From the NCBI GenBank assembly GCA_024685995.1, contig JAIBDY010000008.1, forward strand, positions 24,001 through 57,186: a stretch of DNA of 33,186 nucleotides, written 5' to 3'. The notes beneath the pieces were generated by a model that worked only from the letters and a program-made list of their open reading frames with translations, ran no database searches and was not told where the DNA came from. Made by a program: the position numbers and the translations under genes. Positions 1-28,515 of this stretch are shown piece after piece; the first letter of the stretch is position 1, and each line of letters begins with the position of its first letter. This DNA comes from Piscirickettsiaceae bacterium (GTDB lineage: Bacteria > Pseudomonadota > Gammaproteobacteria > Nitrosococcales > Methylophagaceae).

Positions 1-294
1 TTGGCCGAACGCTACTTCCCAATGCTGATGACGGCATTAGGCAATGTCGCAACGCGGAAAACCCATACCAATGTACTGATGCACCTACAAGGCTATTTAA
101 AGAAGGTGTTATCAAGCGAAGAGAAACAAGAATTAGCAAGACTGATCGACGAATATCGCATCGCTCAGATACCTTTAATTGTGCCAATCACATTATTAAA
201 ACACCATTTTAATAACCATCCTGACCCCTATATTGCTAAACAAGCCTATTTACAACCTTACCCAGATGATTTGAGCTTACGCAATGCAATCTAA
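1..294 (+). CDS. ybgA: YbgA-family (DUF1722) protein, 5' end missing
   Basis: Only the last 97 residues lie in the window; the reading frame is open from base 1, so the start is upstream. The segment has the typical DUF1722 ending: a helical stretch with RKTHTNVLMHLQGYLKK, then LIDEYR...IPLIVPITLLKHH and the terminal HPDPYIAKQAYLQPYP. The biochemical function of DUF1722 is not established; in many gammaproteobacteria it is fused to DUF523 and lies upstream of a MerR regulator and photolyase, as here. Its stop codon (292-294) overlaps the start of the merR gene (284) by 11 bases, so the genes are very likely one operon. Whether a DUF523 half exists upstream cannot be seen. Confidence 0.85.
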   Translation: MAERYFPMLMTALGNVATRKTHTNVLMHLQGYLKKVLSSEEKQELARLIDEYRIAQIPLIVPITLLKHHFNNHPDPYIAKQAYLQPYPDDLSLRNAI

Positions 295-2972: not shown

Positions 2973-5183
2973 ATGACAAAGGACGATGACGAAGCTGACA
3001 AGAAAGCGACATTCCGCCAACGAGCCGAGCAGCGTGTTGCCAGTGCTGACATTCCTCGGAGTGGGACTAAAAAAGACAGGCTACTGCATGAATTGCAAGT
3101 ACATCAGGTCGAGTTGGAAATGCAAAATCAAGCGCTACGCGACTCGCAAGCGGCTCATACCGAAGCGCTTGAGCGTTATACGGAATTGTTTGAGTTTGCC
3201 CCCATTGCCTATTTTGTTGTCGATCAAGCTGGCGTCATTATCTCGGTTAATTTGACTGGCATAACACTTTTTGAAACAGCAAAATCGACGCTAATAGGCG
3301 ACCGCCTTAGCAATTACGTCTTGAGCTCGCATCGCAATCTATTAATCCATTATACGACAGCATTGTTTGCCTTTGGTAAACAAGTCGGTTTTGAGCTTGA
3401 GTTGGCGATAGGGGATCGTGTGATATGGGTGAATGTGGTGTTAAAGCTCGATACCACGGGGAAGCATGGCTTGGTCGCGATGATAGACATTACTTCCGAC
3501 AAAGGTACGCAAGTCGAATTGAAACTGATTGCCGCGGTCTACGATTCACTCACAGAAGCGGTGATGGTGGTCGATAAAGATAATAAGATTATTTCAGTCA
3601 ACCCCGCTTTTACGATGTTGACAGGGTATCTCGAAGAGGAGGCGCTTGGGCAGCCCTTGTCGATATTAAGAGCTTCCCAGCAAACACTCCAACTCGAACA
3701 ACAAATACGGCATCAGCTGCTTGTTACTGGTAAATGGGCTGGGGAAGTGGTGATGAGTCGTAAGAATGGCGATGAATATTTTGAATGGTTATCGATTACC
3801 ACGATTTATGATGATGAAGGCGAAGTAAGTCATCGTGTATCCACATTTTTTGATATTAGTGACAAAAAACAAGCCGCCGACATCATCCTTAGACAGGCCA
3901 ATTTCGATTTACTCACGGGCTTACCCAATCGTCGATTATTTCAAGATCGGATACAACAAGGCATACATAAGACAGCACGGAGCGGCACCAAACTCGCGTT
4001 ATTGAATCTTGATATCGACAATTTCAAGCGAGTCAATGATACCTTTGGACATCAGTTAGGCGATAAGTTGCTGGTAGAAGCCGCCGCAAGGATGAGTCAT
4101 TGCATTCGTGAGACCGATACATTAGCACGAGTCGCTGGAGATGAGTTTGTCCTCATCATGAGTGAGTTAGACGCGCCAAGTAATATTATTCAGCATGTCA
4201 GTGAACGTATTTTAGATGTGATGTCCAATCCTTTTGAGTTAGGAAATTCGTATGCTTATGTGTCGGTGAGTATCGGCGTGTCTATTTTTCCTGACGACGC
4301 TACAGAAATTGAAGCGCTCATTAATAATGCCGATAGCGCGATGTATGTTGCAAAAAGACAAGGGCGTAATCGCTTACATTACTTCACAGCACAGATGCAG
4401 GAAGCGATTACCAGAAAAGTGTTTTTGGGCAAGGAATTAAAACAAGCCATAGACCGAAGTGAATTAACCGCTGTTTATCACCCCATTATTAATTTACATA
4501 CTGGTGAGGTTCACAAGGCGGTAGCAGAATTACACTGGCAACATGCCTCATTGGGCACCATCTCCGCGGCAGAATTTATTCCAATAGCGGAAGAAAGTGA
4601 GTTGATTGGCAAGCTTGGCGACTGGTTGTTTTTTGATGTCGCACAGAAAATCAAGGCATGGCGTCAGCAATATGGGGTAAAGGTTCAGGCTAGCATCAAA
4701 AAGTTTCCTACCCAATTTAAGCACTGTCAGGATCAGCAACCCTGGCCTGAGTATTTGGCTGGAATTGGTTTAGAAGGGCAAGCGATCATCGTCGAGATCA
4801 CGGAAGATCTCCTGTTGGATGCCGATGTACAAATAAGACGGCAATTAACAGAATTAAAAGGTATTGGAATTCGGATTTCACTGGATAATTTCGGTACCCA
4901 GTATTCGCCATTGACCTTGCTTCAAGAGTTCCAAGTAGATTACTTGAAAATTGATAATGCTTTTGTCAGAGGTTTGACCGAAGACTCAAGCAAGATAGCG
5001 ATCTGTGAAGCCATTATTGTGATGGCACATACATTGGCTATCAAAGTCATCGCAGAAGGTGTCGAAACACAACAACAAGCCGATCTATTATCCAAGATGG
5101 GGTGTGATTATGGACAAGGTTCTTTATTTTCTAAGGCCTTATCTGCAGAGGAGTTCGGCACCCTTATCGGTCGTCCACTATGA
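2973..5183 (+). CDS. PAS-PAS-GGDEF-EAL protein, diguanylate cyclase with degenerate EAL domain
   Basis: 736 residues with no obvious signal peptide or membrane segment, so probably a cytoplasmic sensor. Order: charged/coiled-coil-like N-terminus (about 1-65), PAS (about 70-175), PAS (about 186-300), GGDEF (about 310-470), EAL (about 485-736). The GGDEF site reads A388-G-D-E-F392, an accepted active variant, and the inhibitory I-site R379-x-x-D382 lies exactly five residues upstream, so cyclic-di-GMP synthesis with product inhibition is plausible. The EAL half has lost catalytic positions: the EALLRW signature reads V517-A-E-L-H-W522, the metal-binding Asn of the VNLS motif is Ser in QASIKK, and DDFG is DNFG. 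Later landmarks such as AEGVET and the QG motif remain. Phosphodiesterase activity is therefore unlikely. A good Shine-Dalgarno (GGAGG) precedes the ATG. The gene is convergent with ectR. Confidence 0.92.
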   Translation: MTKDDDEADKKATFRQRAEQRVASADIPRSGTKKDRLLHELQVHQVELEMQNQALRDSQAAHTEALERYTELFEFAPIAYFVVDQAGVIISVNLTGITLFETAKSTLIGDRLSNYVLSSHRNLLIHYTTALFAFGKQVGFELELAIGDRVIWVNVVLKLDTTGKHGLVAMIDITSDKGTQVELKLIAAVYDSLTEAVMVVDKDNKIISVNPAFTMLTGYLEEEALGQPLSILRASQQTLQLEQQIRHQLLVTGKWAGEVVMSRKNGDEYFEWLSITTIYDDEGEVSHRVSTFFDISDKKQAADIILRQANFDLLTGLPNRRLFQDRIQQGIHKTARSGTKLALLNLDIDNFKRVNDTFGHQLGDKLLVEAAARMSHCIRETDTLARVAGDEFVLIMSELDAPSNIIQHVSERILDVMSNPFELGNSYAYVSVSIGVSIFPDDATEIEALINNADSAMYVAKRQGRNRLHYFTAQMQEAITRKVFLGKELKQAIDRSELTAVYHPIINLHTGEVHKAVAELHWQHASLGTISAAEFIPIAEESELIGKLGDWLFFDVAQKIKAWRQQYGVKVQASIKKFPTQFKHCQDQQPWPEYLAGIGLEGQAIIVEITEDLLLDADVQIRRQLTELKGIGIRISLDNFGTQYSPLTLLQEFQVDYLKIDNAFVRGLTEDSSKIAICEAIIVMAHTLAIKVIAEGVETQQQADLLSKMGCDYGQGSLFSKALSAEEFGTLIGRPL

Positions 5184-9539: not shown

Positions 9540-11675
9540 TTAGAATGAATGATGCACGCTTAGCTCAAAGTTGCGCTCAGCGCCATATATCCATTGTGTC
9601 GCTTCATAATAGGATGTGGTGAAGTAATATTTATCAAACAAGTTGGCGGCACGTAATGTGACTTTAGTATCGTCGGTGACGCTCCATTGTAGTGATAAAT
9701 CAGTCACGGTATAGGACGGTAATTTTAAGCTATTGGCATTATCTGCATAACGCTTACCAACATAGCGTGTAGTGGTACTGGCGGTCCAGTCTGGCAAGAA
9801 GTTCCAGCTCAAGTTTGCATTAGCCACACGCTCAGGGACATCAGTAGGGACATTGTCTTGGCGAGAAACGGCTGTGCCGCCGACACTATCGGTGAATGAA
9901 TCATATTGTGCATCTAACACAGCCACGTTACCATCAAAGTACCAGTCTTTGGCAATCGGCAAGGCCAATGTCGCCTCGATACCTTGTGATGATTGTTGAC
10001 CGATCTGTACCCGAAGGCTCGGATTGACCGGGCTTCTGGTTAACAGATCTTTTTTCTCGATGTCGAAAACAGAGACTGTCCATTCGGCTGACTCATCCCA
10101 AAATGTTTTTTTCAAGCCAATTTCAAACTGCCTACCTTCTGCGAGCTCTAGATCAGGGTTAGATAATGAAACCATACTGCCGACGGGATCTGCGGCTTCA
10201 GTGTATTGGCCATAAACTGAGAAGCTGGGTGTTATTTTAAAGACAGAGCCCAAACGCCAACCTATATTATTAAATGTCGTATCGAGCGATTGTTGGTTGG
10301 ACACGAAATCTTTACGTGTGACTTTGACATGATCATAACGTACGCCAGCGATGACAGATAATCGTTCCGTCAACGTTAATTGGTCTTCCAAGAATAAGCC
10401 ATATTGTACGGCTTCATTACGATAGTCCGGCGCGATGGGGGCGGAGTTGCTAGGGATGTAATAACCCGCTTGCGGGTTTAAAAGGTTCACCGAACTCGAG
10501 GCGCCAGAATAACCGTTATTTTCATGCTGGAAGGTAGTCGTGCTGATATTAAATCCGACCGCAGTGTGATTTTCTAAACCAAAAATCTGGTTTACATTGC
10601 TTAACGTTGTTGTATTACCTAAAGAGCTTTGATCGTGAGTGATTTGTGTTTGCCAATTGCGATCGACTAAGCCGGTGCCGTTATTATAAAGATACTGTTC
10701 GGTATTCTTCCATTCACGATAAGAATCGATATTGTAAAATTTAGTTGATAGCGTGGTGTTTTCATTGGCTTGCCAATTAAAGGCGACTTCGGCCCATTCA
10801 TCATCGTATTGGATGACGCTATCTTTAACGTTGTAATTGTTACCACGTAATGATTTTTCTTGTTTGCCATTCACTAACGGTGTACCAAAATAACGTACAG
10901 GTTCTTGTTTGCCTTTTGCAACACTGAGTTTCATTTCTAAGTCATCGGTGATATCAACTAACAAGGCGCCATTGACGGTGACATTTTCAGTGTCACCATT
11001 ATCTATCCAACCATCAGATTTATCGGCGCTGACATCAACACGGTAAGCAACGCGATCATTAATCGCACCGCCGCTACCGAGACCAATTCGTCTAGTATCA
11101 TCAGAACCCACGGTGAGTTTAACCTCGTTTTGGATCTCACCGCGGTGTGGTGTTTTAGGAATGACATTGACGACACCGCCGATGGCACCGCTACCATAAA
11201 TAACAGAAGAGGGGCCGTGTAAGACCTCTACGCTATCCACAGACCAAGTATCAAATGGAAACGTTAAGATAAAGCCACCATATTGACGGGCACCATCATA
11301 GAGTCGTATGACGGTGTTGACGCCAGTAAACCCTCTAGAGGATAAGTCTTGACCGCCATTACCGTTATGACCTAGATTGGTCATACCAGTAGAGCGGGTA
11401 ATGACATCAATAAGCTTGATATCGCCACGTTGTTCGATGACATCGCGCGTAATAATATCGACACTCGCTGGGGTCTCTAAGGGAGTTAAACCTAAATATG
11501 AGCCCGTCGACGCGGGTTTGTTTAACTGTGAAGTTGTATCGCCTTCAACTACCAGATTCGGCAAGGTTTCCGTATCCGCTGCTAAGGCGATCGCATGCTG
11601 TGTTGATAACACGATAGCGAAGCCTACGCAGCGTGAAAAAAACTTCAATGGCCGACTGATTTTCTGTAAAGGCAT
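9540..11675 (-). CDS. TonB-dependent siderophore receptor
   Basis: Outer-membrane beta-barrel receptor that imports a ferric siderophore using TonB energy. From the ATG at 11675 (GGAG Shine-Dalgarno six bases upstream) it has 711 residues. Residues 1-32 are a signal peptide ending near AIALA; a TonB box ETLPNLVV follows at about 36-43; the plug domain holds TPLETPASVDIITRDVIEQRG and GLGSGGAIN; the barrel ends in a terminal phenylalanine (VHHSF). It resembles the FhuA/FpvA-type siderophore receptor family, but the ligand cannot be told from sequence. No siderophore synthesis or ABC transporter genes adjoin it, so it may take up a xenosiderophore. The frame extends 22 codons upstream to 11741, without a signal-peptide-like beginning. 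Confidence 0.92.
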   Translation of the reverse strand: MPLQKISRPLKFFSRCVGFAIVLSTQHAIALAADTETLPNLVVEGDTTSQLNKPASTGSYLGLTPLETPASVDIITRDVIEQRGDIKLIDVITRSTGMTNLGHNGNGGQDLSSRGFTGVNTVIRLYDGARQYGGFILTFPFDTWSVDSVEVLHGPSSVIYGSGAIGGVVNVIPKTPHRGEIQNEVKLTVGSDDTRRIGLGSGGAINDRVAYRVDVSADKSDGWIDNGDTENVTVNGALLVDITDDLEMKLSVAKGKQEPVRYFGTPLVNGKQEKSLRGNNYNVKDSVIQYDDEWAEVAFNWQANENTTLSTKFYNIDSYREWKNTEQYLYNNGTGLVDRNWQTQITHDQSSLGNTTTLSNVNQIFGLENHTAVGFNISTTTFQHENNGYSGASSSVNLLNPQAGYYIPSNSAPIAPDYRNEAVQYGLFLEDQLTLTERLSVIAGVRYDHVKVTRKDFVSNQQSLDTTFNNIGWRLGSVFKITPSFSVYGQYTEAADPVGSMVSLSNPDLELAEGRQFEIGLKKTFWDESAEWTVSVFDIEKKDLLTRSPVNPSLRVQIGQQSSQGIEATLALPIAKDWYFDGNVAVLDAQYDSFTDSVGGTAVSRQDNVPTDVPERVANANLSWNFLPDWTASTTTRYVGKRYADNANSLKLPSYTVTDLSLQWSVTDDTKVTLRAANLFDKYYFTTSYYEATQWIYGAERNFELSVHHSF

Positions 11676-16881: not shown

Positions 16882-18681
16882 ATGAAAAAGATACAAGTAA
16901 CAGATGTAATTTTAAGAGATGCACATCAATCGCTGATCGCCACCAGAATGCGAACAGAGGATATGCTGCCAATCTGTGACAAGCTCGATCAAGTCGGGTT
17001 TTGGTCATTAGAAGTCTGGGGCGGGGCGACTTTTGATGCCTGTGTACGCTTCTTAAAAGAAGATCCTTGGGAGCGTCTGCGTCAGTTGCGTTCGGCGCTA
17101 CCAAATACGCCATTACAAATGTTATTACGCGGTCAAAACTTGCTCGGTTACCGTCATTATGCCGATGATGTGGTGCGGGCGTTTGTGGCTCGTTCGGCCG
17201 AAAATGGCATTGATGTGTTTCGTGTTTTTGACGCCTTAAATGATTTGCGTAACCTTGAAACGGCGATGAAAGCAGTCAAAGATAATGGTAAACATGCCCA
17301 AGGTACAATCAGTTACACCACCAGCCCAGTACATACTTCTGCATTATTTGTCCAGCAAGCTAAAGCCCTACAAGATATGGGGGCTGACTCGATTGCGATT
17401 AAAGATATGGCGGGATTATTAACGCCATACCCAACTTATGATTTGGTGAAAGCGATCAAGGCAGAAGTGGATTTACCGTTGGTGATTCACAGCCATTCAA
17501 CATCAGGTTTGGCGGCGCAATGCCAATTAAAAGCAATTGAAGCGGGCGTAGATCGAATCGATACTGCGATTTCCTCATTTGCCTCTGGAACCAGTCATCC
17601 CGCGACAGAATCACAAGTAGCCGCTTTGCGCGGTACGGAATGGGATACGGGGTTGGACCTGTCATTATTATCTGAAATCGCTGATTACTTTCGGGAGGTT
17701 CGTAAAAAGTATCACCAGTTTGAAAGTGAATTTACCCGTGAGGACGTATCGGTTCAAATTAATCAAATTCCTGGTGGCATGATGTCGAACCTTGCCAATC
17801 AGCTAAAAGAACAAAATGCTTTGGATCGGATTAAAGAGGTGTTTGCAGAAATCCCTCGAGTGAGAAAAGATTTGGGGTATCCCCCCTTAGTGACACCAAC
17901 GTCACAAATTGTCGGGACGCAAGCAGTCTACAATGTGTTGGCAAATGAGCGCTACAAAACCATTACCAATGAAGTGAAACGTTATTTATTAGGCGGCTAT
18001 GGTCAGGCGCCTGCATCGGTAGACGCAAAGCTTCAGAAAAAAGCCGTCGGAAATGAGCAAGTGATAGATGGTCGTCCGGCGGACGGCCTCAAACCTGAGT
18101 TAGCAAAATTGCGTGCCGACATTGCTGAGCTCGCTCAATCAGAGGAAGACGTGCTGACCTTTGCGATGTTCCCTGACTTGGGACGAGAATTCTTGCAACA
18201 ACGTGCGGCGGGTACATTAGTCCCAGAACCCTTGTTACCGGAAGCCGAAACCAAAGACCGTATTATCGGATCCTCGGTCGCAACAGAGTTTAAAATTGAT
18301 GTGCATGGGGAGACCTATGATGTTGCGATCACGGGGGTTGGTGACGTGGGGGGCGGTAAGCGAAAGCTTTATGTATCACTCGATGGCATGCCAGAAGAAG
18401 TGACTTTCGAAACGCTAGGTGAATATGTCAGTGATAAGACCAGTAGCGGCCGTAAAAAAGCCACAGAACCCGGTCATGTGACATCACCATTGCCTGGCAA
18501 TGTGGTCGAAGTACTAGTACAAAAAGGCGATACGGTCAAGGAAGGCCAAGCATTGATAGCAACAGAAGCGATGAAGATGGAGACAGAGTTATTGGCCAAT
18601 ATTGCTGGTGTCGTGCAAGAAATCTATGTCGGAAAAGGGGATCGGGTCACCCCGGGCGAAGTGTTAATAGAAATAAAATAG
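16882..18681 (+). CDS. pycB: Pyruvate carboxylase subunit B (carboxyltransferase plus biotin carrier)
   Basis: Transfers carboxyl from carboxybiotin to pyruvate, giving oxaloacetate (anaplerosis). From the ATG at 16882 (GGAG nine bases upstream; a TTG five codons earlier overlaps that signal) it has 599 residues. The N-terminal TIM barrel begins VTDVILRDAHQSLIATRMR and has VFRVFDALNDLRNL and HSHSTSGLA; the PYC/OADA conserved domain spans about 290-490; the biotinyl domain ends the protein with the biotin-accepting K565 in EAMKMET. It is related to oxaloacetate decarboxylase alpha. No membrane beta/gamma subunits adjoin, and PycA does, so the anabolic role is preferred. Confidence 0.93.
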   Translation: MKKIQVTDVILRDAHQSLIATRMRTEDMLPICDKLDQVGFWSLEVWGGATFDACVRFLKEDPWERLRQLRSALPNTPLQMLLRGQNLLGYRHYADDVVRAFVARSAENGIDVFRVFDALNDLRNLETAMKAVKDNGKHAQGTISYTTSPVHTSALFVQQAKALQDMGADSIAIKDMAGLLTPYPTYDLVKAIKAEVDLPLVIHSHSTSGLAAQCQLKAIEAGVDRIDTAISSFASGTSHPATESQVAALRGTEWDTGLDLSLLSEIADYFREVRKKYHQFESEFTREDVSVQINQIPGGMMSNLANQLKEQNALDRIKEVFAEIPRVRKDLGYPPLVTPTSQIVGTQAVYNVLANERYKTITNEVKRYLLGGYGQAPASVDAKLQKKAVGNEQVIDGRPADGLKPELAKLRADIAELAQSEEDVLTFAMFPDLGREFLQQRAAGTLVPEPLLPEAETKDRIIGSSVATEFKIDVHGETYDVAITGVGDVGGGKRKLYVSLDGMPEEVTFETLGEYVSDKTSSGRKKATEPGHVTSPLPGNVVEVLVQKGDTVKEGQALIATEAMKMETELLANIAGVVQEIYVGKGDRVTPGEVLIEIK

Positions 18682-18895
18682 TCTGGAGAAAAAGGCCTGT
18701 TTGAAACAAAGCCGTCGACTTGACGATATTCTCTGACGAGGAAATGAGCAAGCGTTAACGAATAAAGTTATAAAAGTGATGGATCAAAATGAACCATTTG
18801 CTCATTCGGATGTACTAAATAGGTGCATGCCAATAAGGTCGATGAATAGTGAATCCAATTAAACTATTGATCTTTAACATCTTTATAATTTGGCA
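18682..18895. other. pycB 3' region with an internal inverted repeat
   Basis: No gene seen. ATGAGCAA (18744-18751) and TTGCTCAT (18798-18805) form a perfect 8-base pair of arms enclosing a smaller ATGG/CCAT hairpin, so the region could fold as a small structured RNA. A weak GGC...GCC hairpin lies near 18692-18711, without a T-run. A -10-like TATAAT occurs at 18884-18889 without a recognisable -35. Confidence 0.4.
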
Positions 18896-19008
18896 TGAAA
18901 TGTGATTTAAATTAGTCGATTAATTGGTTTTCCTCCACTTAAAGAATCGATTGATTTGTCTCGTAGTAGCGTTGGGACAGCCTTAGTGATAAGGCTGTCC
19001 CTTTTTTT
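18896..19008 (+). ncRNA. Candidate small RNA with anti-Shine-Dalgarno loop and intrinsic terminator
   Basis: About 113 bases. A 14-bp stem pairs 18908-18921 with 18945-18958 (11 Watson-Crick pairs and three G-U) and presents a 23-base loop containing TTTTCCTCC (18928-18936), complementary to Shine-Dalgarno sequences. It is followed by a perfect 12-bp stem and seven T. This stem-loop plus terminator layout with a C/U-rich loop is common in trans-acting small RNAs. TATAAT lies at 18884-18889 and would set the start near 18896, but the -35 is poor, so it may instead be processed from the pycB 3' end. Not matched to any family I know. Confidence 0.45.
18974..19008 (+). terminator. Strong intrinsic terminator
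   Basis: GGGACAGCCTTA (18974-18985), loop GTGA, TAAGGCTGTCCC (18990-19001), then seven T (19002-19008). It is the only good terminator after pycB, 293 bases past its stop. Confidence 0.95.
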
Positions 19009-19058
19009 ATCTGCACAAGCGACTTGTCACTACCTTATGCACTTGGCTAATTGGAGTA

Positions 19059-19086
19059 TTGAGCCGGCGGCATAGCCTAATAGTAT
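19059..19086 (+). promoter_or_regulatory. Possible sigma70 promoter for the DUF2797-pyrD operon
   Basis: TTGAGC (19059-19064) and TAGTAT (19081-19086) with a 16-base spacer, about 60 bases before the GTG start and after the preceding terminator. Moderate match only. Confidence 0.4.
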
Positions 19087-19146
19087 CGTCCGTCAGTAAT
19101 GATTACGTTAAGATAGTCGGCATTAATTAATGCTGAGGTAACAAGT

Positions 19147-19983
19147 GTGAGTGAAGTTGAAGGTTTATTATCTAAAATGGCGGTGTCCTTGTCGACAGAA
19201 CAAGGGGTAGCTCATTATGAGATGGTGTTGAGTGATCATCGTATCGATATGAATGCATTGGTCGGTAACCCCATTACGCTGACCTACCACGGCGAGATCC
19301 ATTGCCATGCCTGTGGCCGTTTAACCAAAAAGAGCTTTAGTGGCGGTTACTGTTTTCCTTGTTCGCAAAAACTAGCACAGTGTGACTTATGTATCATGCG
19401 CCCTGAGACCTGCCATTATGCGGCCGGAACATGTCGTGAACCGTCGTGGGGCGAACAGTTCTGTATGCAAGACCATATTGTCTACCTGGCCAATAGTTCA
19501 GGGATCAAGGTTGGGATTACCCGCATCAACCAAATCCCAACACGCTGGATCGACCAAGGGGCTACTCAAGCATTGCCTATCTTTAGGGTTAAAAGTCGCT
19601 ATCAATCCGGTTTGGTTGAGGTGGCCTTTAAAGCCCATGTGTCCGATAGAACCGATTGGCGAAAAATGTTGAAAGGAGATGCCGAATCGCTTAATTTACA
19701 GCAAGTGAGAGACGAGTTAATGCTGCAATGCAATGGCGAGATAATGGCACTGCAACAACGATTTGGGCCAGGAGAAATCACGCCTTTAAGCGATGAAAGT
19801 ATCGTTGATATTCGCTACCCAATCGACGCTTATCCGGCAAAAATAAAATCATTAAACCTAGACAAAACACCGGAAATTTCAGGGGTGTTGCAGGGTATCA
19901 AAGGTCAATATTTGATACTCGATACAGGGGTGATCAATATTCGTAAATTCACCGGCTATCAAGTTAAGTTTGGAGCCGCGTAG
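19147..19983 (+). CDS. DUF2797 protein with zinc-binding cysteines and GIY-YIG-like region
   Basis: 278 residues from a GTG with GAGG eight bases upstream. Function unknown. Residues 53-96 carry a cysteine cluster, C53-x2-C56, C69-x2-C72, C79-x2-C82, C89 and C96, likely to bind zinc. Directly after it, DHIVYLANSSGIKVGITR and RWIDQGATQALPI look like a GIY-YIG-type core (VYLA... then KVGITR). I cannot say whether the nuclease site is complete. The C-terminal 100 residues (near VDIRYPIDAYPAKIKSLNL) are family-specific. Its stop overlaps the pyrD start (TAGTG), so the two are translationally coupled, but no link to pyrimidine synthesis is known to me. Confidence 0.85.
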   Translation: MSEVEGLLSKMAVSLSTEQGVAHYEMVLSDHRIDMNALVGNPITLTYHGEIHCHACGRLTKKSFSGGYCFPCSQKLAQCDLCIMRPETCHYAAGTCREPSWGEQFCMQDHIVYLANSSGIKVGITRINQIPTRWIDQGATQALPIFRVKSRYQSGLVEVAFKAHVSDRTDWRKMLKGDAESLNLQQVRDELMLQCNGEIMALQQRFGPGEITPLSDESIVDIRYPIDAYPAKIKSLNLDKTPEISGVLQGIKGQYLILDTGVINIRKFTGYQVKFGAA

Positions 19984-27399: not shown

Positions 27400-28515
27400 A
27401 TGGCCAAACGAGATTTTTACGAAGTACTGGAGATTTCACGTACCGCGACGGAGGCTGAAATTAAAAAAGCTTATCGCCGCATGGCAATGAAATACCATCC
27501 CGATCGCAATGCGGGAGGTGCCGATACAGAAGAAAAATTTAAAGAGGCAAAAGAAGCCTACGAGATTTTATCGAACCCACAAAAGCGGGCAGCCTATGAT
27601 CAGTTTGGTCATGCTGGCGTTGATCAATCGGCTGGCGGTGGCCAGGGTGGTGCCGGTGGCTTTAGTGATATTTTCGGGGATGTGTTCAATGATATCTTTG
27701 GAGCATCTGGCGGCGGTAGACAAGGTGGCGGCTATCGGGGTGCTGACTTACGTTATCACTTAGAAATGACATTAGAAGATGCGGTAGCCGGTAAAACGGT
27801 TGAAATCCGTATTCCCGTGCATGTTGACTGCAAAACTTGTGATGGTACTGGGGCGAAACCAGGGACTAAACCTGTGACTTGCACCACTTGTGGTGGTCAT
27901 GGTCAAGTGCGTATGCAACAAGGATTTTTCTCTGTTCAACAACCTTGCCCGCATTGTCATGGCACAGGAAGAATGATTCAGTCGCCTTGTGACGATTGTC
28001 ATGGTGAGGGCCAGATTCAAGAACATAAAACGCTCTCGGTGAAGGTGCCTGCAGGTGTAGATACCGGCGATCGCATTCGCCTTTCGGGTGAAGGTGAGCC
28101 TGGGCAAGGTGGTGCTGGACCAGGTGACCTCTATGTCGAAGTGCAAGTGCGACGTCATGATGTGTTCACACGTGATGATAATAATTTATTCTGCGATGTA
28201 CCGATAAGCTTTACGGTTGCGACCTTGGGTGGCGAACTCGAAGTGCCGACATTAGCTGGCAAAGCCAGTTTAAAAGTGCCGGAAGGTACCCAGTCAGGCC
28301 AACAATTCAGACTGCGCGGTAAAGGTGTTAAATCGGTTCGTAGTGGCGTGACAGGGGATTTAATGTGCCGAGTGATTATCGAAACGCCAGTGAAATTATC
28401 CAAAAAGCAAAAAGCCTTATTGGAAGAGTTTGCTGCGACATTAGAAGGTAGCCACAGCAAGCATAGCCCAAAACATAGTTCGTGGTTAGATAAGGTCAAA
28501 GAGTTTTTTGACTAG
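27400..28515 (+). CDS. dnaJ: Co-chaperone DnaJ (Hsp40)
   Basis: Delivers unfolded substrates to DnaK and stimulates its ATPase. 371 residues, type A: J domain with H33-P34-D35; Gly/Phe-rich linker (about 77-112); zinc region of four CxxCxGxG repeats starting at C144, C161, C183 and C197; then two beta-barrel substrate domains and the dimerisation tail. A usable but weak Shine-Dalgarno (AGCAGG) lies upstream. dapB follows 63 bases later. Confidence 0.99.

Follow-up and report, generated by a model that had tools for sequence, protein, structure and literature searches.

The window, by which we mean the whole 33,186-nucleotide stretch of DNA analysed (G000:C7:24001-57186; the G000 assembly is 81.64% complete), almost certainly carries a real, new and unannotated small RNA gene. 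We propose, with a probability of roughly 0.7, that it encodes a trans-acting small RNA (sRNA) of about 92 nt, activated by NtrC and sigma54, which covers ribosome-binding sites under nitrogen limitation. Control by NtrC and sigma54 is likely, judging from the promoter elements, and anti-Shine-Dalgarno action in trans is plausible. By computation, the hairpins are kept with compensatory changes, the promoter architecture is kept, and in roughly half of the loci a hairpin starts at the predicted +1 or beside it. The region that would switch the gene resembles one controlled by NtrC, the regulator of nitrogen starvation; the sRNA therefore probably lowers the expression of other genes in these methanol-using bacteria when nitrogen is scarce. 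The features of the locus are as follows.

18780-18796, + strand: distal element TGGATCAAAATGAACCA, probably a second (weaker) NtrC site
18811-18827, + strand: proximal NtrC-type site TGTACTAAATAGGTGCA (10/12 of the consensus), 80 bp before TGGC
18860-18872, - strand: IHF-like site, reverse complement GATCAATAGTTTA, 8/9 specified positions of WATCAANNNNTTR (hand-counted)
18891-18906, + strand: sigma54-like promoter (-24/-12) TGGCATGAAATGTGAT; TGGCAYG-N4-GTGA is common to type-I loci
18908-18958, + strand: stem of the preliminary description (18908-18921/18945-18958), able to form completely only with a transcription start no later than 18908
18917-19008, + strand: predicted sRNA, about 92 nt, from the sigma54 +1 to the end of the T tract; homologues recovered by models R1/R2
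18918-18956, + strand: 5′ hairpin from +2, arms 18918-18931 and 18943-18956, loop 18932-18942 CCUCCACUUAA
18957-18973, + strand: single-stranded linker TGTCTCGTAGTAGCGTT, from alignments of homologues
18974-19008, + strand: intrinsic terminator, 12 bp (arms 18974-18985/18990-19001), GTGA loop, seven T (19002-19008)

The gene lies downstream of pycA and pycB (biotin carboxylase/pyruvate carboxylase subunit genes) and upstream of DUF2797, which is followed by pyrD. A preliminary description had proposed an unannotated small RNA gene here, and the homologues found in relatives, in which stem and terminator covary, bear this out; the predicted 5′ end is moved from 18896 to 18917, which brings the length to about 92 nt. 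No open reading frame common to the members was seen by eye.

Homologues and covariation

With BLASTN the element was searched in 59 relatives; at E 1 or better 46 genomes had a match, almost always noise; the window aside, the sole match later seen to be a homologue was G002:C41 (E 0.001). Among the 30 DUF2797 loci listed, the element was found upstream of DUF2797 in the window and in four of 29 others (G003, G011, G016 and G010), all four from genomes of its genus, and was absent from G018 and G022, the closest by DUF2797 identity. A covariance model, R1, was built from these five loci and run on 57 genomes of the family. It matched G003 (two copies), G016, G000, G011, G010, G002, G013, G006 and G007 with E values from 1e-22 to 2.4e-4, five of the ten matched loci being those used to build it. 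The additions are the second G003 copy, a G002 copy without a sigma54-like promoter, and weaker copies in G013, G006 and G007. Among the R1 matches with E 0.004 or worse, the ten that were read were judged to be terminators alone or chance hits; the one exception, L183, overlaps the doubtful locus L272 (G017).

A second model, R2, was built from ten loci. Of 29 genomes of the genus it matched 15 at E 0.5 or better, several by chance; L278 and L279 were dropped once read, and L275 and L280 lay outside the reading. Across 63 genomes of the order, 23 were matched at E 0.01 or better. The range thereby gains G002:C31, G021 and 12 Methylophaga-group (g3) genomes, nine of which were read; G067, G068 and G064 lay outside the reading of the order matches. 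R2 matched none of the six genomes from the other family of the order.

In a plain MAFFT alignment of ten transcripts, which is not model-fitted and whose paired columns were chosen by looking at that same alignment, 90.9% of cells are paired and 15 of 20 pairs show two-sided changes. None of 500 shuffles reached this level, and structures slid along the alignment gave 1-4 such pairs. A model-fitted alignment of 20 sequences (19 distinct) has two-sided changes in 20 of 23 pairs, against 2-8 for slid structures, and is biased towards the structure; the loci are moreover not independent, the G062 and G063 elements being identical. Across homologues the 5′ stem has 93.9% of its cells paired, with two-sided changes in 6/10 pairs, and the terminator shows such changes in 9/10 aligned pairs. 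Stem and terminator are thus both kept in relatives with compensatory changes, and the pattern in which the terminator stays and the stem is lost did not occur.

Two of the loci deserve separate comment. On G003:C16 (L250) two sRNA gene copies, at 3176-3302 and 10597-10721, flank a cluster that has an FAD oxidoreductase gene at one end and an SDR gene at the other and contains, by eye, cyclopropane-fatty-acid synthase-like and MFS transporter-like genes. The arrangement suggests sibling sRNAs or duplication along with the cluster. A cluster that looks very similar lies beside the G002:C41 copy (L251, 9003-9122), whose RNA region is apparently complete and whose promoter is replaced by unrelated, coding-looking sequence; this is either a truncated gene or an artefact of MAG assembly or contamination.

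Promoter architecture

The loci are of two types, type I, which includes the locus of the window, and the Methylophaga type (type II). Type-I loci carry TTGGCAYG-N4-GTGA at a nearly fixed distance from a TGYACTAA-N-GTGCA-type site; the exceptions are G011, which has TTGACA and ATAA, and the C41 copy of G002, which has no such promoter. Mean pairwise identity among six type-I loci is 0.72 in the distal site as against 0.33 in the next 14 bases, between the sites; it is 0.63 in the proximal site, 0.47 in the spacer and 0.76 in the -24/-12 element. Within the transcribed part the values are 0.47 (5′ arm), 0.46 (loop), 0.75 (3′ arm), 0.61 (linker) and 0.56 (terminator).

The proximal site scores 13.4 with an NtrC PWM made from ten glnA sites of the genus and their reverse complements, and none of 200 mononucleotide shuffles scored as high. 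In 14 of 23 loci the best PWM match falls at -76 to -80 relative to the promoter, and in G013 and G001 at -68/-67, with second-best matches at -68 in G006 and -78 in G072; the remaining loci with nothing at the usual offset are G011, G002B, G007, L276 and the doubtful G017. The glnA promoter of G000 (TTGGCTCATTTTATGCT) offers a comparison: its NtrC sites lie 69 and 99 bp upstream of TGGC, those of the sRNA gene 80 and 111 bp, and the distal-to-proximal start spacings are 30 bp and 31 bp, respectively. The distal glnA sites of G010, G012 and G003 have, by eye, a similar TCAAAAT/CCAAAAT core. The P-II loci examined yielded no promoter information. An NtrC gene is present at G000:C15:4542-5909 (723.7 bits against a cut-off of 558.6), and 49 of the 57 family genomes have one above the curated cut-off.

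IHF-like matches were scored against the IHF consensus. At least 8/9 positions match within the spacer in 16 of 21 loci, G002B and G017 being left out of the count, compared with 3.7 expected from shuffles. For thirteen of the 16 the listed match lies on the minus strand at -28 to -30; the window is listed with another 8-of-9 match, at -15. As far as sequence goes, the putative IHF site completes the usual enhancer-promoter layout.

The sigma54 +1 is placed 12 nt after the -12 element, at 18917. In the window TGGC and the spacing match sigma54, and the -12 element is GTGA rather than TGC (GA instead of GC), whereas Methylophaga-type loci have TGGCAY-N-TGC and glnA of G000 has TGGCTC-N-ATGC. 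This deviation in the window's subfamily is a real weakness of the sigma54 reading. The window contains 94 loose sigma54-like sites on both strands, and just two have an NtrC-like site (at least 9/12) at this distance: the sRNA promoter (10/12) and a minus-strand site at 28013, which by eye resembles neither motif.

We infer transcription, binding by NtrC, IHF and sigma54, anti-Shine-Dalgarno action, a role for Hfq and the existence of targets, in the following scheme. Under nitrogen limitation phosphorylated NtrC would occupy the two upstream sites, IHF would bend the DNA between these and the promoter, and NtrC would activate sigma54 RNA polymerase at TGGCATGAAATGTGAT. Transcription from near 18917 to the terminator would yield the RNA of about 92 nt, with a 5′ hairpin from +2 presenting CCUCCACUUAA, a UCUC-containing linker, and the terminator with its U tail. 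The exposed pyrimidine-rich segments could then pair with purine-rich ribosome-binding sites and so repress translation, probably with Hfq.

Fold and stem register

The segment 18880-19015 folds at -40.7 kcal/mol, compared with -24.85 +/- 3.24 for 200 dinucleotide shuffles (z -4.89, no shuffle as low). Three terminator-like sites lie in 18600-19200, where 0.5 are expected, and that of the sRNA is by far the longest; its 12 perfect pairs and seven T were correctly described before, and its loop is GTGA. The 14-bp stem described upstream of it exists as well (18908-18921 with 18945-18958), and its 23-nt loop, 18922-18944, contains TTTTCCTCC.

A competing stem, 18918-18931/18943-18956, is the MFE structure when the RNA starts at the predicted +1, and it corresponds, with its loop CCUCCACUUAA, to the stem kept by homologues. 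When the region from -60 to +45 was scanned, 12 of 23 loci had their best stem beginning at +1 or +2. In the other 11, the window among them, it begins at +4 (G003A), -1 (L276), -3 (G002B, G007 and G059) or -8 (window), or lies beyond -10 (G021, G001, G073, G072 and G017). The 14-bp stem is the strongest at the window locus (-37.1 kcal/mol against -32.5 kcal/mol for its competitor), and the choice of stem there therefore rests on homology and the promoter. Because the best 5′ stem lies at +1 or +2 in 12/23 loci, the register first described is probably wrong; the hairpin is real, and the likely register exposes exactly CCUCCACUUAA.

The original register would hold if the sRNA were driven by sigma70 from 18896. 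A TATAAT at 18884-18889 is presumably the basis of that start, and the 14-bp stem is both the more stable and the strongest in the wider region. However, no matching -35 was found in the promoter listing of 18600-19200, the five other type-I loci that were aligned have no TATAAT at this position, and in those 12 loci the homologous stem begins at +1 or +2 of the predicted sigma54 transcript. We regard a sigma70-driven sRNA as very improbable and retain the sigma54 start.

Directly 3′ of the stem, UCUC is seen by eye in most members. Both the loop CCUCCACUUAA and the linker UGUCUCGUAG of the window RNA are exposed and pyrimidine-rich.

Genomic context

A link to pycAB and carbon flux had been suggested from the position of the gene. 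The neighbourhood is not conserved: homologues sit beside DUF2797, SDR, CDF efflux, MOSC or UreG-like genes, and the suggestion falls. The element might still be the 3′ end of the pycAB mRNA, a terminator with an incidental hairpin, or a 3′UTR-derived RNA tied to carbon flux, and it does hold the strongest terminator of 18600-19200, after pycB. Against this, by eye the element is not seen after pycB in any of six genomes with a close pycB (82-85% identical; 450 nt read, one of the six contigs ending at 169 nt); it has a conserved promoter of its own and its first hairpin covaries. Where a genome has both a close pycB and a model match, the match is on another contig or far away. An mRNA 3′ end accordingly seems scarcely probable.

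An alternative with rather more in its favour, which we nonetheless consider quite unlikely, is that the RNA serves as a leader or attenuator for the gene that follows (in the window, DUF2797-pyrD), the terminator being the regulated element. The nasF leader, NtrC/sigma54-driven and NasR-controlled, is a parallel, and many loci have a close co-directional gene (DUF2797, SDR or CDF). In G006 and G001 the next genes are, by eye, nitrate-sensing-like and response-regulator-like. However, the co-directional conserved gene directly downstream that a leader needs was not found: the downstream genes are unrelated and differ per locus, and G013, G021 and G073 have none that is co-directional and directly 3′ of the sRNA. 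Inspection by eye showed no alternative antiterminator pairing, and the 5′ hairpin loops are of about 11-16 nt, in contrast to the short hexaloops of NasR/ANTAR targets. We therefore prefer an independent sRNA to a leader.

We note that in G006 and G001 (L178 1501-1634 and L274 1501-1621) a sigma54/NtrC-type element lies, by eye, ahead of the nitrate-sensing-like gene and a small response-regulator-like gene, and could be an independent nas-type leader; Pfam found nothing at 1e-5 in the two G006 proteins. A CDF-type efflux gene adjoins five of the six Methylophaga-type loci examined, and G063, G059 and G034 also have a formate dehydrogenase-like gene (Pfam was run on the G063 proteins only).

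Loop and candidate targets

The loop had been described as complementary to ribosome binding sites. The segment CCUCCACUU occurs in 5/7 type-I loci; it is absent from G011, G010 and the Methylophaga-type loci, so the anti-Shine-Dalgarno loop holds for part of the family. It is kept in these five though the loop as a block does not stand out: its identity is no higher than that of the promoter spacer (0.46 vs 0.47 in six type-I loci, G016 being partly misaligned there). Type II lacks a CCUCC-type segment and has a UCUCUCU linker. The simplest interpretation of the pyrimidine-rich exposed segments is that they pair with ribosome-binding sites.

Searched in six genomes, the pattern AAGTGGAGG-N2..10-ATG points in three of them (G003, G010 and G011) to the same GST-like gene, with a 2Fe-2S/FAD reductase gene next and a ferredoxin-like gene ahead. 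Out of 116 background start regions, those binding the sRNA of their own genome as well as or better than the GST start number 1 for G003A, 1 for G003B, 3 for G010 and 22 for G011. The G011 sRNA has lost the loop part that matches the GST Shine-Dalgarno sequence, the G012 gene has the same sequence without a detected sRNA, the G018 and G002 GST genes have other such sequences, and no GST-like gene was found in G000 or G016. Because G011 binding ranks low and G012 has the site without a detected sRNA, the GST-like gene is a lead only; the search that had been proposed from the loop thus gave a recurrent candidate with inconsistent support across genomes. The pattern AGTGGAGG-(2..10)-ATG has no site in the 82%-complete G000 assembly. 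A relaxed pattern found nothing in G000, only the GST gene in G003, the GST gene and two others in G010, and three places in G016, one of them the sRNA gene itself on the other strand.

At L204 (560-2287) the order is a 59-aa ferredoxin-like gene, the GST-like gene and the 2Fe-2S/FAD reductase gene, with the end of a desaturase-like gene ahead. The sequence AAGTGGAGG before the GST gene is common to G003, G010, G011 and G012.

It may also be that the RNA is real and NtrC-driven and binds a protein or sponges another sRNA instead of pairing with mRNA starts. The loop varies between subfamilies and in type I is no better kept than the spacer, while hairpin, UCUC linker and terminator persist, and no conserved target was found. 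However, neither a repeated unpaired GGA (by eye) nor an obvious protein-binding repeat was seen, and exposed pyrimidine-rich segments are typical of seeds. We consider such a role unlikely, and pairing with mRNA starts remains our preferred reading.

Type I and Methylophaga-type RNAs

Methylophaga-type loci have canonical promoters, and most have an NtrC-type site. Their hairpin at +1 is of the TACAAACAA/TTGTTTGTA type (G072 lacks it); the loop is of the UUUUCAGCUGC type and the linker is UUUCUCUCUUGUCUACGUGCUGAG. The loop UUUUCAGCUGC (L281-L287) is self-complementary (CAGCUG) and could pair with GUGCUGAG in the linker; a dimer or a pseudoknot is possible.

With an RNA-only model, R3 (21 loci), Methylophaga-type loci have E values of 0.0002-0.023, overlapping plain-terminator decoys at 0.007-0.95; L274 is unmatched and only L276 is clear. 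The RNA by itself thus points weakly to common descent of the two types. The case for uniting them therefore comes mainly from the promoter, the spacing and the bridging sequences L179 and L276; G007 and G002:C31, both of the window's genus, bridge type I and type II.

Tentatively, the family may represent a nitrogen-starvation sRNA scaffold found throughout Methylophagaceae, with the seed exchanged between lineages and the gene at different loci. The enhancer, the IHF site and the promoter would stay, as would the +1 hairpin and the terminator, one genome having two gene copies, while the seed would be CCUCCACUU in the window clade and the UUUUCAGCUGC loop with the UCUCUCUUGUCUACGUG linker in Methylophaga. 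We hold this less likely than not, the weak footprint of the loop counting slightly against it. If it is true, the same NtrC signal would have been redirected to different mRNAs, perhaps ones for one-carbon oxidation. The sRNA family also provides a natural series, with a conserved scaffold and promoter and a changing seed.

Comparison with known systems

At gathering score Rfam has nothing in the window or in 11 homologous loci. Eleven sub-threshold matches were set aside as chance, the best being BTnc201 (E 0.018), RefA9 (0.04, other strand) and NmsRb (0.56). Membership of NmsRb (RF02877) was rejected, its 21.3 bits against a gathering score of 52 (E 0.56) being at chance level. NmsRb resembles the window sRNA in its hairpin-linker-terminator layout and is by its Rfam name a metabolic sRNA; NmsR has anti-Shine-Dalgarno action. 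It differs in belonging to Neisseria, which is of a different bacterial class from the window's host.

Methylophaga and relatives live on methanol and methylamines. Because methylamines supply both carbon and nitrogen, an NtrC-driven sRNA would link nitrogen status to one-carbon metabolism directly and testably. In the open-licence literature we found no report of a nitrogen-controlled sRNA in these bacteria.

Elsewhere, sRNAs under NtrC or sigma54 are already known (NfiR, NrsZ and GlnZ), and we compare them by description. NfiR of Pseudomonas stutzeri A1501 has an NtrC-bound promoter with a predicted sigma54 element, a mapped start 29 bp after that predicted site, and a seed inside its 5′ stem-loop (PMC6606865). 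It is like the window sRNA in its NtrC/sigma54-type promoter, shortness, 5′ stem-loop seed and nitrogen-related control. It differs in being 54 nt long and in pairing inside the nifD coding region, which stabilises nifD (PMC6606865), where the window sRNA is predicted to have about 92 nt and to pair with ribosome-binding sites. NrsZ of Pseudomonas aeruginosa is likewise an RpoN-dependent, nitrogen-regulated intergenic sRNA; unlike the window sRNA it lies downstream of ntrBC, is processed and activates rhlA (PMC9731577, PMC6606865). GlnZ of Enterobacteriaceae is released from the glnA 3′UTR by RNase E cleavage and so differs in being without its own promoter; it shares with the window sRNA a place in the nitrogen-limitation programme, where it couples nitrogen and carbon metabolism (PMC9731577).
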